NCBI RefSeq assembly: GCF_033473495.1
Contig: NC_088935.1
Coordinates: 2,666,001-2,730,000 of the forward strand
Direction: 5' to 3'
Source of the DNA: Cercospora beticola
Lineage: Eukaryota; Ascomycota; Dothideomycetes; Mycosphaerellales; Mycosphaerellaceae
Length of the DNA: 64,000 nt
The position numbers and the translations under genes are program-made. Shown one piece after another: positions 10,173 through 41,800 of this stretch (positions within the stretch are counted from its first letter, which is position 1; every line of letters starts with the position of its first letter). The notes beneath the pieces were generated by a model. That model was given only the letters and a program-made list of their open reading frames with translations. It made no database searches and was not told where the DNA came from.

Positions 10173-12356
10173 ATGGTCGTGACGAGAGTTCTCTGTGTGG
10201 CTGAGAAGCCTTCAATTGCGAAGGCTGTGGCAGGACACCTCAGTGGGGGCCATTTCCAGACTGTAAGCACATTCAGAGACCACACTACTTCATGACCTGA
10301 CAAGTACAGCATCCAATCACCGGCAATCAATATGTGAAGAATTACGAATTCTCGTTCAATTTTCCAGGATGGGGTCCTTGCGAAGTTACCATGACTTCGG
10401 TGTTGGGTCACCTCATGGAGGCCGACTTTGGAGCCCAATACAAAAGCTGGCACTCGCAAGACCCTTCTGCTCTGTTTGACGCTCCAATCGAAATTTCTGT
10501 CGCGGACAAAATGAAGGCGGTGGCACGCAACATCGGAGTCAAGGCTCGCCATGCTCACTACCTGTACATCTGGACGGACTGTGATCGAGAGGGCGAGCAC
10601 ATCGGCACCGAGATCATGAAATGTGCGCAGGAGACCAACCAACGGTTTCGTACTGCAGGTAGAGTCGTTCGTGCACGCTTCTCGAACATTGAGCGAACGC
10701 ATGTGCTAACTGCAGCGCGAAATCCGATCACGATAGATGAAGCGCAAGCCAATGCTGTATATGCACGGCAGGAGCTCGATCTGCGTATCGGAGCATGCTT
10801 CACTCGTAGACTGACAATCGACCTGAAGCCGATGATGCCCTGGGCGGACGAACGCGGCAAGGTAATCAGTTACGGCAGCTGCCAGTTTCCAACACTCGGC
10901 TTCGTGGTTGAGCGATACATGCGCGTGCGCAATTTTGTGCCCGAGACCTTCTGGGCAATCAAGGTTATGCATCGAAAAGACGACCAGGAAGTCAACTTCC
11001 GCTGGGCTCGAACACATTTGTTCGACCGGATGGTCACGACGATTCTCTACGAAAAATGTCTGAATGCACGAGAGGCAGTGGTGTCGAGAGTGCAGACCAA
11101 ACCGACCTCGAAATGGAGGCCCTTGCCACTTACGACTGTTGAATTGCAGAAATGCGGCAGCAGATTCCTCCGGATGAACGGCCAACGTGTTATGAGTGTC
11201 GCAGAGAGTCTCTATCAAAAAGGCTTCATCAGTTATCCGCGCACGGAGACGGATCAATTTGACAAAAACATGGACCTTCGACAGTTGGTGCAGAAGCAGG
11301 CCCAGAACCAATCTCGCTGGGCGAACTACGCGCAAGGACTGCTCAATGGCGGCTTCCGATGGCCTCGTGATGGTCGTCACAATGACAAAGCCCACCCTCC
11401 AATCCATCCCGTCAACTTCGTCGCCGCAAATGCTCTCGATGACGAGTCGCAGCGAGTCTACGAGTTTGTCACCAGGCGATTCTTGGCGTGCTGTAGTGAT
11501 GATGCAAAGGGAAGCAAGACCGAAGTGAGCATTGCTTATGGTCCTGAGACCTTCCACGCCTCTGGCTTGACGGTACTGCAGCGCAACTACCTGGATGTGT
11601 ATCCCTATGACAAATGGACCAGCAGTCAAGTGCTGCCTGACTTTCAACAAGGAGAGTCTTTCGTGCCGACATCTGCCTTGATGCACGAAGGACAGACTTC
11701 GCCACCCGGATACCTCACGGAGCCAGAGCTGATAGCATTGATGGACACTAATGGCATTGGCACCGATGCAACAATGGCCGAGCACATTGCCAAAATACAG
11801 GAGCGAGAGTATGTGCAGACAAGACCGAGAGCCGGGCAGGCGCGCCAGAATGCCGGGGACGAAAGTGAGGAAGAGGTAGAAGGTCCCGTACAAGCCCAAC
11901 GAGGGGGCGGTCGAGGACGTGGTAGAGGCCGCGGCAGAGGTGGACGCGGTGGAGCCAACAACCGTCCTGGAGGAAGCACGACCGGAGTGGAAGAATTTAT
12001 ACCGACAACGCTTGGGGTCGCGCTTATCGAAGGCTACGAGAGCATGGGCCACGAGATCAGCATGGCGAAGCCCTTTCTACGCAAGCAGGTACGTCGCGCG
12101 ACACATCGTCTGATGAGAAGGCACTAATCGGTCCAAATCCAGATGGAGGTGAAGATGAAGGATATCTGCGAGAATCGCATCACGAAGCAAGCCATGGTCC
12201 AGGAGATGATTGAGCAATATCGAGCCACATACGTCCGAACAAAGCATGGCATGCACTTTCTTCAAGCGGTAAGTGTGGACCATTCGAAGATGGGAGAGCA
12301 ATACTGATGATTTTCTCCAGTCTGTGCGCAAGTACGTTCAAGGCCAACCAGGATGA
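10173..12356 (+). CDS. TOP3: DNA topoisomerase III (type IA)
   Basis: ATP-independent type IA topoisomerase that works with RecQ helicase (Sgs1/BLM) and Rmi1 to dissolve recombination intermediates in the nucleus. Exons 10173-10262, 10310-12088, 12143-12268 and 12321-12356 give 676 aa; introns 47, 54 and 52 nt. The Toprim domain shows LCVAEKPSIAKAVAGHL and the acidic WTDCDREGEHIG motif. The active-site Tyr is about residue 339 in FISYPRTETDQF. The core ends with VEEFIPTTLGVALIEGYES and a short tail SVRKYVQGQPG, with no C-terminal zinc fingers. A run of RG/GRGRG repeats (about residues 560-580) is inserted within the catalytic core, after EYVQTRPRAG. In TOP3B of animals an RGG box sits at the C-terminus and binds RNA; here the position differs. 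Confidence 0.95.
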
Positions 12357-33200: not shown

Positions 33201-33509
33201 ATCGACCTCAGCCTCCTACCGCTCAAGCACTCAAACGGGATCTCTTTGAAGCACAGTAAAATGCTCTGGCAAGGACCTTGCATATGTGCCGGACGTGATC
33301 ACACTTATAACTGTCGCATCGTAGACTTCAACTTTCGCCAGCTAGAAGTCTTTTGCCGTCCAGCCTGTTGTTCCTTTCCGGGAGCAGGTGCGGATTCGGG
33401 CATCGCTGCTGATGATGAAAGCATCACTTCTTTGTTTCTGGATTCGTATCCAGAATCGGATCTCTCGCGATGCGAGATTGCAGGTTCTACGGGCCTTATC
33501 TGGTCTTGA
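30278..33509 (+). pseudogene. Decayed large gene (frame shifts and nonsense codons), lineage-specific
   Basis: A run of protein-like sequence on the plus strand that no single frame carries. It uses frame 2 (30278-30850, stop TGA 30581-30583), frame 1 (about 30859-31640), frame 2 again (about 31670-32700, stops TAG 32081-32083 and TAA 32348-32350), then frame 3 (about 32700-33509). Convincing stretches include IASWAVLQSPNCSLDKDSIV, YDDVFQYVLQSGDWTAKPHA, RTIAAIEAAFANGVPAIVQE, KNSHTRVVYIRHGLSSQIQH, VVPCFGCGARMLREQIEAHR. The last holds a C-x2-C that could be zinc-binding. All three nonsense codons could arise from CGA, CAG or CAA by C-to-T. Some frame changes could instead be introns with poor signals (31092-31130, or a 91-nt GTTGTG...GTGGAG near 31640), so an intact gene is not excluded. 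The 3' end overlaps the minus gene at 33305 in antisense. Confidence 0.42.
31351..31650 (+). repeat. Diverged tandem duplication, period 150 nt (two copies)
   Basis: Copy 1 at 31351-31500 and copy 2 at 31501-31650 are in frame, 50 codons each. Shared marks are TCTCCGC near the start, CTGCCAGCTA/ATCGCCAGCTA, and the block TTTCTGTCAACCCTG. The encoded repeats share ISVNPGLLAILAD / ISVNPELLEILAD. Both copies have drifted, so the duplication is old. Confidence 0.8.
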
Positions 33510-35854
33510 GATGGTTGAACGGATAAGTCAATCGCTGTGCTGATCGAGCTCACTCTGCCTGAGCGATCTGAGCTAGCTGAGGCAAACGACAATCCCGTTG
33601 CAACGCTGCTGCGATGTTGCTGGGAACCTTTGCCAGGAGGTATAGCAAATGATGATGTTCGCGACTGCGCTACCTGTGTCGGAGATTTTTGGCCTGATCG
33701 ATTGTTCCGCCCTGGGTACTGCTGGACCGACGTTGGATGCTCTTGACGAAATCGCATGCTCTGCTCGAAGATTTTCTGGTCTCTGATCTGCTGATCTCGG
33801 ACTGCGAAGCGAAGGTGAAGCTCCTCAATGAAGAGATTCTTCGATGCCAAATCCGGGAATATCAGCATCAGATACTCGGTGCTCTTGATTGAAACCTTCC
33901 CGCGCGAGCGAGGATGTGATGGCGTACGCAGAGGCAATATGTTGAATGTGATAGGATCCGGTCGACCTTCAGAGTCGGTTTCGGACGACACATAGCGCAC
34001 GTTGAACGAGGACCGAGAATCCTTTCTGGCTCTCAGTGCGACTATGGTGCATCCGGGATCTCGATGACAAGGGCAGGACGTAGGATCGATGTAAATGTCG
34101 TTGTCCAGGTCGACGGCGAAAGCCGCGAAACTCTTCCTTTCTTTCCCCCTTTTGGACTTCTCGACCAGCTGCGTGAAGATCACAATGCACGAAGACTTTG
34201 CGCGCTCCGACTCAAAGCCTTCGCCAATAGCGTGCACCGTACTCGGTGCTGTGATCGAATGTGTCAAGCTGAGCCGGGCGGAATGAGAACCATGCGCTTG
34301 GGAACAATCCGAGCCAACTTGTGATGGAGCTGTTGGAAGCACGATCGGCTCTTGCCACAGCTGCACACGACTGAAGCCTTTGCATGCAAGCTCTTCATCA
34401 CTGAACTGGCACCGGACTCGGCTCTCCTCATGTGCGACTTGATATCCCATCAATGCACCCTGCAGTCGGTGGACGTCCTCGATACTTTTGAAGTCGAAAT
34501 ACTCCGCGTTGCGACAAAAGATCGCGAGCTCTAGACAAGGCTCGACTAATGTTGGGAATGCGTAACGAGGTATCAATCGATCCTCTGTCACGATCAGCTC
34601 GTGTTGTGTGACCACGACCCTCCCTCGCGCTGCCTGACTTCCACTCTCATGTACGATACGCAGGCGCTCTTCCGAGCTCTTGATCGCAGTCAGCGACTCG
34701 ACGTCTTCTGGAGAGCTTGACGCCAGGTCCATCGAGCACAGCTTCTCTTCCCCACCGCGTACCATGATAGGATCAGGCTTGCGATACTGAACATCCTCGG
34801 AGAGTACAGGTACCGGCCACACGCAAAAGTCTGAGTCTGGAAGCTCTAGTAAAGTCTCATCCGGGTATGAGATGAGCCTCGTCGAGCTCGCCATTCTCGT
34901 CAGGATCGCTTGCTGAACCTGGTTCACTGCACGCCTGTAGTAGTAGCCAGGTCGCGCGTTCTTGTATTCCTCGCTCTCCAGTATACGCTCAAGCAGCCAC
35001 CTCGACTTGAGAAACAGTAGGTATCCTCGGTGCGTCTGGCTGGATCCGTCCTCTCGACTTTCCTCAAAATGTTCAAGCAACGAATCGAAGCCTTTGATCA
35101 GAGGCACATCGATCTGTGCATTTGCATCTCCATCTGCATGCATTGATTGTTCAAACTTCCGTGCGATCACCTCGCTCACGGGAAACGCATCTTGTGAGGC
35201 AGGTATTTGGGGAGCGCCCTGACCCGACACATAGCCCAACCAAGAGGCATAGAACCGTGCCAATTCAAGCCGAATCTCCTGCGAGACTTGCAGATTCTGC
35301 TCGGATATCGCAAGAATGTCGTCAACTTTATCATCCAGGTCGGTGAGCATATTGACTGACAGCCGATCAATCACCAGGCGTATCTTCAACGAGTGAAAGT
35401 GCAAACGACGTCGCAGCACATCTGCTTTGATCTCCTGCTGGCCAAGATTGTATTGCAAATTCTCCAGCACATGAGAGTCTCGGTCGCGAAAGTGCTTGTT
35501 TTTCTGGAGCAAAGCGTCGCATTCTTTCAAAGTCTTGTGGAAGTCACCAACAATGGTTTTCCGTTCGTTTTCGAAATCTCTCTCCAACGGTCTGATCCCC
35601 GAGAGAGCTTTCTTCTCCCATCGCTGCTGTGCTTCCTTGAGAGCGGCATTCAGCTTGTCAAGCAACTCCTTGAATTCCAGCACCTCTCGTCGAAAATTGG
35701 CATATCGCACATCTGCGATCGTTAGAAGATGGGCGTCATATTACGGACTCTGGACATCACTACCTGCTCTATTCTCATAAGTGAAACCATAGTCATAGAG
35801 CTTGATCGCTAACTCTACGCCCTTAACTATGTCACTGACGCCGGAGAAGCTCAT
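33305..35854 (-). CDS. Uncharacterised fungal protein, 832 aa, coiled-coil N-terminus
   Basis: Exons 35854-35764 and 35712-33305, intron 35763-35713 (GTAGTG donor, TTCTAACG branch, GATCGCAG acceptor). The join gives ENRADVRYANFRREVLEFKE. The N-terminal 200 residues (MSFSGVSDIVKGVELAIKLY, then LDKLNAALKEAQQRWEKKAL and VLRRRLHFHSLKIRLVIDRL) are helical and resemble the N-terminal helical region found on several fungal NLR/STAND and ankyrin proteins, but no NACHT or repeat domain follows. A long middle part has mixed alpha/beta sequence. The last 140 residues are Ser/Gln-rich and disordered, ending basic (SSWRKLKSTMRQL). No signal or membrane span. A stand-alone relative of such N-terminal signalling modules is possible, but this is inference. 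Confidence 0.78.
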
Positions 35855-40919: not shown

Positions 40920-40926
40920 TCTTCAT

Positions 40927-40937
40927 TGGTCTAGTGG
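40927..40937 (+). promoter_or_regulatory. Pol III A box of tRNA-Asp
   Basis: TGGTCTAGTGG fits TRGYNNARNNG at every fixed position. Confidence 0.88.
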
Positions 40938-40985
40938 TCATGATTTCCGCTTGTCATTGAATCAATCTCAAGCGCGGGAGACCAG

Positions 40986-40996
40986 GGTTCGATTCG
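40986..40996 (+). promoter_or_regulatory. Pol III B box of tRNA-Asp, last base supplied by the intron
   Basis: GGTTCGATTCG against GGTTCGANTCC: ten of eleven match. The eleventh base is the first G of the 57-nt intron, so the insertion lies at the very edge of the B box and leaves its core intact. This would let TFIIIC bind. Confidence 0.8.
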
Positions 40997-41064
40997 TGAG
41001 TATCACCACAAATACCTCCAATAGGCTTTCAGTTGCTAACATGAAATTTCAGCCTGATGGAGAG

Positions 41065-41800
41065 CTGTACAGCAAATCTTTCTTTTTGCCATTTGAGAGC
41101 GATGGAAGTTGACATTAAATCTTTTTGCACAGGTGTTTTATCTCCGAAACCTTAAACGTTGGCGGGGTGGTATTCTTTTTGCCCTTTTCGTCAAGTCTCT
41201 AGCCTCCTTTTACGCTACCAGAAGTATTATATCAGTCCATGATGAGGGAGAACGAAGCAATTGAAGCGGATTACGAGAGTGAATGTACGGCCATTGTGAG
41301 AGACAGCAGCATTTGGCGATAGCAATAGGCATTGGATTGCCAAACTTTGCATTTGGCACGTCATCACGAGGGTGAATACGGCGCAAGATTTCGTGGATTG
41401 TCCTCGTAGCATGGACATTGACCTGGTCGTTCGTAGTGCTACTGGCTTTCGGAGACTCGTCGGAAGCGTACGTCTTGCCAACGACATGGCAGGGCGTGCA
41501 ATGGAGGCTACATGAAAATGTGGCTTTGAAAAGCAGTATTTCAGTGTCCAGCTGATTGATCGTATTTGCCCCTATTGAGTATTACTGAGCTGCGAGGCTA
41601 GTCAACAGAAATTTCAGATCTTGAAACGTGCGCAAGTTCCAATTCTCAGAGACCTTCATCTGCTCTGCAGCATTCATACACTTCTACAAAAATACAAATT
41701 GGTATCAATGGTTTCGTCAGTTTACGCCCCCAGCGCCTCGCTAAATCCAAGAGTGTGTGATCTGTAATCCTTTCACAAACTGCGTCCTGTGAATCACTTC
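41065..41800. other. Intergenic region, tRNA 3' flank
   Basis: About 740 nt. Besides the T-run, no feature recognised. It includes the 3' end of the 41801 gene. Confidence 0.45.
41079..41087 (+). terminator. Pol III terminator of tRNA-Asp
   Basis: T-rich run TTTCTTTTT with an unbroken T5 at 41083-41087, about 19 nt after G73. It supports Pol III transcription of the whole interrupted gene. Confidence 0.7.

Follow-up and report, generated by a model that had tools for sequence, protein, structure and literature searches.

In textbooks, the introns of tRNA genes are endonuclease substrates. What, then, is one to make of a nuclear tRNA gene interrupted in its T arm by an element with the signals of an mRNA intron? 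Such a gene, tRNA-Asp(GUC), lies on the plus strand at 40920..41064 of the window, i.e., the whole 64,000-nucleotide stretch of Cercospora DNA analysed here (G000:C1:2666001-2730000). The genus is supported by two proteins encoded in the window: the product of 33305-35740 has 98% identity over 99% with a C. kikuchii protein, and the topoisomerase of 10301-12127 has 97% identity over 98% with one from C. berteroae. An earlier note on this DNA left two outcomes open: either the spliceosome removes the intron from a Pol III transcript, or an introner-like insertion has killed the gene. The second reading, under which interrupted genes are dead or silent insertion copies and intact genes elsewhere supply the tRNAs, would agree with a review section according to which insertions in the D and T arms of nuclear tRNA genes of eukaryotes are usually read as likely pseudogenes (PMC4090602).

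Anatomy of the tRNA-Asp gene and its paralogues

Read directly, the gene consists of 3 exons and 2 introns of different kinds, all on the plus strand. Exon 1 (tRNA positions 1-37; 40920..40956) contains an unbroken A box, TGGTCTAGTGG (40927..40937), and is followed by the usual 16-nt tRNA-type (TSEN) intron at 37/38 (40957..40972), just as the earlier note had it; the other three tRNA-Asp genes found have 16, 30 and 32 nt at that site. Exon 2 (positions 38-61; 40973..40995) ends with the unbroken B box GTTCGATTC (40987..40995), the last base of which abuts the 5' splice site of a 57-nt spliceosomal-type intron at 61/62 (40996..41052). This insertion starts with GTGAGTATC, providing a GTGAGT 5' site, and finishes ATTTCAG, with TTTCAG as the 3' site; inside it, GCTAAC (41035..41040) is a putative branch site with the branch A at 41039, 13 nt before the intron end. 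The insertion between positions 61 and 62 had been claimed on the strength of these very features, and it stands, with borders that cannot slide by even 1 base; only the distance of GCTAAC from the end, given as 12-17 nt, has to be corrected, to 13-18 nt. Exon 3 (positions 62-73; 41053..41064) supplies the 3' strand of the T stem, the acceptor strand and G73, and a T5 run 18 nt 3' of the gene (41083..41087) is a putative Pol III terminator. With A box, B box and T-run terminator, the DNA has the layout of a type 2 Pol III gene. Removal of both introns restores the cloverleaf, as previously described, in the form of a 72-nt mature tRNA-Asp that is the same as the product of the three other genes found (L002, L003 and L076). 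Predicted splice junctions read, e.g., TTCGATTC^CCTGATGG and, in the initiator tRNA, GGCGCA^GCGGAAG. As expected from the interruption of the T arm, the gene was not reported by ARAGORN in bacterial mode, by ARAGORN with introns allowed, or by Rfam at the gathering threshold.

One segment of the 61/62 intron, CTCCAATAGG (41016-41025), is complementary to the 3' acceptor strand (41053-41062), and so is the equivalent segment, CTCCATCAGG, of the 61/62 intron in L002; before intron removal, these segments could compete with the acceptor stem. The hairpin of the intron with the 3' acceptor strand also accounts for a minus-strand match to Rfam mir-980 (24.8 bits against a gathering threshold of 47), which was rejected as a microRNA.

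Genome searches for other tRNA-Asp genes and for the 57-nt sequence, both suggested as checks in the earlier note, had different outcomes. All searches covered genome G000 (36,074,111 bases in 10 contigs). A tRNA-Asp DNA query returned four places including the window, and a pattern for the 5' half with <=3 mismatches added one more fragment. L002 (G000:C4:3734458-3734600) carries a 53-nt GTGAGT..ACTGAC..CTCAG intron at exactly the same 61/62 site; L003 (G000:C1:3142398), devoid of a spliceosomal intron, is a natural empty site; L076 (C3), obtained from a later pattern, has a 53-nt GTAAGT..CAG intron, but at 23/24. After intron removal, all four genes found are identical over 72/72 mature positions, with no decay of the mature sequence. 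Between the window gene and L002, exons plus the 37/38 intron are identical at 87/88 positions, as against 39/62 for the spliceosomal introns and identities of 0.47 and 0.53 for the two 50-nt flanks, so that intron and flanks are near saturation. The presence of differing intron sequences at the same site of independent loci led us to reject an assembly error. The 57-nt sequence itself, by contrast with what had been considered for an introner-like multicopy element, has no second copy in the genome, and introns of different isotypes are little alike (see below).

A tRNA-Asp gene without a spliceosomal intron and two true fragments (L004 and L038) are the kind of loci that would be expected if interrupted genes were dead copies. 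However, an identical mature tRNA-Asp next to diverged introns and flanks shows that the window gene has not decayed. Judged from the sequences, the pattern is that of selection acting on the mature RNA while the intron is free to change, rather than that of a dead copy.

Introns of spliceosomal type across the tRNA genes

The tRNA-Asp intron is, by our gene models, one of many spread over the tRNA genes of Cercospora. Searches with the Rfam tRNA model, exon patterns, motif patterns and DNA queries, which do not amount to a census, identified 36 spliceosomal-type introns, each 51-61 nt long, in 28 nuclear tRNA genes that represent about 17 isotypes; 21 genes have one such intron, 6 have two, and 1 has three. 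Isotypes were assigned by hand, as ARAGORN often gives a different anticodon, and intron positions follow our own numbering. The introns lie at 61/62, 61/62 and 23/24 in Asp; at 14/15 in both initiator Met genes; at 61/62 in two Trp genes; at both 20b/21 and 61/62 in two Leu-AAG genes; in the variable arm of Leu-CAG; at 25/26 in Leu-CAA; at 20/21 and 54/55 in Thr-UGU; at 5/6, 25/26 and 70/71 in Arg-UCG (which, by reading, would have four introns if an apparent 37/38 intron is counted); at 23/24 in Pro-AGG; at 58/59 in Arg-CCU; at 68/69 in Ala-UGC; at 20/21 in Ala-CGC; at 53/54 in two Phe genes; at 4/5 in two Cys genes, one with an additional variable-arm intron; at 16/17, 16/17 and 18/19 in Val-AAC; at 65/66 in two elongator Met genes, one of which also has an intron at 4/5; and at 68/69 in Ser-UGA. 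An uncertain Thr-like gene, L093, has two D-arm introns and two U-U mismatches in the T stem, and no other gene among the 28 is less certain. None of the 36 was found in the anticodon arm, over positions that the searches covered unevenly, and none of these spliceosomal-type introns is at 37/38, where separate introns coexist with them.

The searches differed in yield. The Rfam tRNA search, again not a census, scored 62 of 905 candidates and gave at least 44 matches at E <=10. By reading, such introns are present in 14 of these and absent from 23, while 3 appear to be organellar and 4 fall into a tRNA-like group; for comparison of scale, 200 tRNA genes are stated to have been predicted in C. 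sojina (PMC7032006). A DNA query scored 40 of 55 candidates, and the second Cys gene was not among the matches listed. A query with fungal tRNA sequences yielded a single gene, that of the initiator. Among the motif patterns, B box plus 5' splice site gave 15 matches against 33 in the reversed control (all 15 read, 5 being tRNA genes); an 11-nt A box plus 5' splice site gave 37 against 24 (all read: 9 tRNA genes and about 12 members of an unrelated RNA family); a 12-nt A box plus 5' splice site gave 30 against 43 (8 of the 30 inspected, none a tRNA gene); and branch site, 3' splice site and B box gave 30 against 114, comprising 2 known genes and, among 8 others inspected, the second Cys gene. 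Three of these patterns fall below their reversed controls; tRNA genes could be told apart only by reading the matches.

All 36 introns are GT..AG, the placement chosen where borders slide. Two thirds (24/36) start with GTGAGT or GTAAGT, the 3' ends are CAG in 26, TAG in 6 and AAG in 4, and CTRAY occurs 8-17 nt before the intron end in 31; two introns have weak 5' sites, GTACGG and GTTCGT. Because 18 of the introns were found through signal-based patterns and, hence, weigh less as evidence on signals, we consider separately the signal-independent subset of 18 introns in 17 genes, namely, the given gene and those found by exon patterns, DNA similarity or the Rfam model (L002 came from a query that included the window intron). 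Here, 18/18 are GT..AG under the same rule for sliding borders, 14/18 start with GTRAG, and 16/18 contain a CTRAY motif whose A lies 8-17 nt before the intron end, compared with 1.07 expected from shuffles (maximum 7 in 5000). With 60-nt flanks, ARAGORN called a tRNA in 28/28 spliced genes versus 3/28 unspliced ones, and in 63/720 cases after removal of equal lengths at random other places. When the removal was shifted by 12 nt, 4/36 and 12/36 were still called; with shifts of 1-3 nt, 29-35 of 36 were, so that ARAGORN does not prove the borders to the base, which are fixed by stem pairing and GT-AG.

In the same genome, a scan for mRNA-like introns produced 32 ORF-bridging candidates of 45-64 nt versus 5 in the reversed control; the scan was limited to 45-65 nt, which makes the length match to the tRNA introns only partly independent. 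Group I introns, whose catalytic core takes up about 200 nt or more, were rejected on account of the intron lengths of only 51-61 nt.

These signals also bear on the possibility that the tRNA splicing endonuclease cuts out the introns as ectopic tRNA introns of the sort present in red algae and nucleomorphs. The review section on such cases does describe non-canonical introns in both the D and the T arm, with some genes having two or three, much as in Cercospora (PMC4090602). The introns of the Guillardia nucleomorph, however, are 3-24 nt long, and those of Cyanidioschyzon have critical bulge-helix-bulge (BHB) motifs; section 5 of that review mentions no spliceosomal signals for the algal and nucleomorph introns (PMC4090602). 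In our set, a central 4-bp bulge-helix-bulge helix was found in 0/36 introns (a simple one-register test), all 36 models have GT..AG borders, 31 have a branch site, and the window gene and others contain separate 37/38 introns without such signals. The canonical 37/38 (TSEN) introns, although present in the same genes, differ in position, in lacking GT-AG and a branch site, and in being processed by endonuclease and ligase instead of the spliceosome. Endonuclease cleavage of the 36 introns appears extremely improbable.

How did these introns arrive at their sites? The intron cores of different isotypes have a mean identity of 0.52 (maximum 0.67, 95% point 0.59; 604 pairs). Same-site introns of paralogues exceed 0.59 in Val (0.73), Cys (0.69), elongator Met (0.65), one Leu-AAG comparison (0.63) and initiator Met (0.61), and fall below it in Asp, Trp and Phe (0.55 each) and in the second Leu-AAG comparison (0.53). 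As several exceed the 95% point, some sites at least have been passed on by gene duplication. Over 9 comparisons between paralogues, 759/805 positions are identical in the exons (37/38 introns included) versus 381/597 in the spliceosomal introns, and same-site pairs have kept their splice signals in eight isotypes (Asp, initiator Met, Trp, Leu-AAG, Phe, Cys, Val and elongator Met), which again speaks against dead copies. The three Val-AAC genes with introns at 16/17 (twice) and 18/19 (once), L107, L108 and L110, have an identical 74-nt mature sequence, and the shift of site could represent either intron sliding or a separate gain.

Initiator tRNA, polymerase and the predicted order of processing

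Some isotypes do not force splicing: for Asp and Val-AAC, copies free of a spliceosomal intron (L003 and L010, respectively) exist beside interrupted ones. The initiator tRNA is another matter and provides the strongest functional argument among the isotypes. Two initiator genes were found, both interrupted at 14/15 within the A box, and no uninterrupted one: a 26-mer core with <=3 mismatches and the exact 13-mer anticodon arm GGGCTCATAACCC each match only the two interrupted genes. By eye, compensatory changes set the two genes apart at pairs 7:66, 49:65, 51:63 and 52:62, indicating that both have been kept as RNA; compensatory changes at 5:68 and 52:62 were likewise seen by eye between the Cys paralogues. 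With both genes interrupted, splicing looks obligatory for the initiator tRNA, and, if the assembly is complete, translation could not start without removal of this intron. For Trp, Phe, Cys and Leu-AAG, too, both copies found are interrupted, in searches that were non-exhaustive.

These observations, along with the terminators and B boxes retained by most of the genes (see below), make it very improbable that the interrupted genes have died or fallen silent. Of the two outcomes in the earlier note, the one with a killing insertion looks very unlikely, considering the 72/72 identity of mature tRNA-Asp, the site in common with a paralogue, the spread over at least 28 genes and the interruption of both initiator genes; the first reading, under which a Pol III transcript contains a spliceosomal intron, is strongly favoured.

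That the transcript is made by Pol III needs separate consideration, since the normal substrates of the spliceosome are Pol II transcripts, and the spliceosome might remove the introns from Pol II transcripts of these genes. TTTT is the stop signal of Pol III, and it occurs in 0/36 introns, compared with 6.3 expected from shuffles (P=0.0008); with one gene per isotype, the figures are 0/23 and 3.7 (P=0.0126). The comparison with mRNA-like introns, 5/32 with TTTT versus 0/32 tRNA introns (those modelled at that point), is marginal (P=0.053). A run of T4 or longer lies within 60 nt downstream of 26/28 genes, and an exact B-box match is present in the last 100 nt of 26/28 unspliced genes. The Phe B box is completed by the final G of the intron, and the A box is split by the intron in initiator Met and Val-AAC. 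On the side of Pol II are the two elongator Met genes that lack T4 in 60 nt, one of which has T9 about 85 nt downstream, and Arg-UCG with TTTT in an exon, which Pol III would have to read through and which mildly speaks against a strict TTTT rule. On balance, boxes, terminators and the absence of TTTT from the introns point to Pol III, and transcription by Pol II seems improbable.

We therefore return to splicing of Pol III transcripts. Very probably, the nuclear tRNA-Asp gene is functional and transcribed by Pol III, and the 57-nt element is a spliceosomal intron of U2 type that the spliceosome removes from the transcript. Pol III would transcribe from the internal A and B boxes, across the intron, to the downstream T-run, as suggested by intact boxes, the presence of terminators and the absence of TTTT. 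The spliceosome would then recognise the short intron by intron definition and remove it, which the splice signals and the exactly restored cloverleaf lead us to infer. As the cloverleaf could fold only once this intron is gone, RNase P, RNase Z and, for the 37/38 intron, the tRNA endonuclease presumably act after the spliceosome. More broadly, the supply of several tRNAs in Cercospora, including the initiator and probably Trp, Phe, Cys and Leu-AAG, likely requires that the spliceosome process Pol III transcripts; on molecules that also have a 37/38 intron, the tRNA endonuclease would act next. The many interrupted genes, both initiator genes found among them, suggest that Cercospora needs the mRNA-splicing machine for making tRNAs.

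If this is true, the spliceosome works routinely on structured Pol III transcripts, translation is tied to splicing, and the capacity for pre-mRNA splicing directly limits translation initiation. The tRNA introns also offer a natural system for studying how very short genes gain introns, where structure gives an exact read-out, and essential genes can escape standard tRNA annotation of such fungi.

Known systems and other RNA-like loci

The closest precedents come from other non-coding RNAs. U6 snRNA is made by Pol III, and repeated intron insertions in fungal U6 genes were reportedly described by Canzler et al. in 2016. Fungal U6 genes are alike in having mRNA-type introns in a small structured Pol III RNA; they differ in that U6 is not a tRNA, whereas the Cercospora introns affect about 17 tRNA isotypes and at least 28 genes, with up to three introns per gene, some within the internal promoter boxes. 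Fungal U3 snoRNA genes, with normal spliceosomal introns in a structured non-coding RNA, are another precedent, but these concern a snoRNA and are nearly confined to one stem-loop, and according to the same paper, U3 and U6 were as of 2017 the sole small structured RNAs in which frequent interruption by an intron was known (PMC5832005). Introner-like elements of Dothideomycetes exemplify spliceosomal intron gain in the same fungal class (PMC4457414), but the tRNA introns have no near-identical copies. The word tRNA is absent from the available text of the introner papers PMC9860276 and PMC4457414 (main text). A full-text literature search, assessed by titles and abstracts among the matches listed and with subscription papers and preprints outside its range, gave no earlier account of nuclear tRNA genes with spliceosomal introns, although one may exist.

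Several other loci surfaced in the searches. Eleven of them (L064, L065, L066, L067, L068, L069, L070, L074, L079, L087 and L091), perhaps with L060 and L092, make up a dispersed, partly clustered RNA-like family. The 11 aligned members have a conserved start, CAACGATCG..TTGGTCNAGYGGTA..GTAAGTCG (A-box-like), about 100 variable nt and a conserved end, CGATTGTTTTGC; the ends look pairable, and four members had no Rfam match at E <=0.1. The family is possibly an undescribed Pol III RNA. Five tRNA-like loci (L031, L100, L105, L106 and L132) have in common the start GGGGYTGTGGTCYAAYGGTAAGA, the T arm and the acceptor end, with very variable anticodon arms and inserts. L125, outside the count of 28, is a possible degenerate tRNA gene. 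Three AT-rich, mitochondrial-looking tRNA genes (L017, L025 and L028) lie within about 530 nt (G000:C2:3502591-3503121), perhaps as a nuclear insert of mitochondrial DNA. Finally, L120 (G000:C4:883990-884310), the decayed 5' half of a tRNA-Ala(AGC) gene about 250 nt upstream of the intact L024, is a true pseudogene and provides a contrast case.
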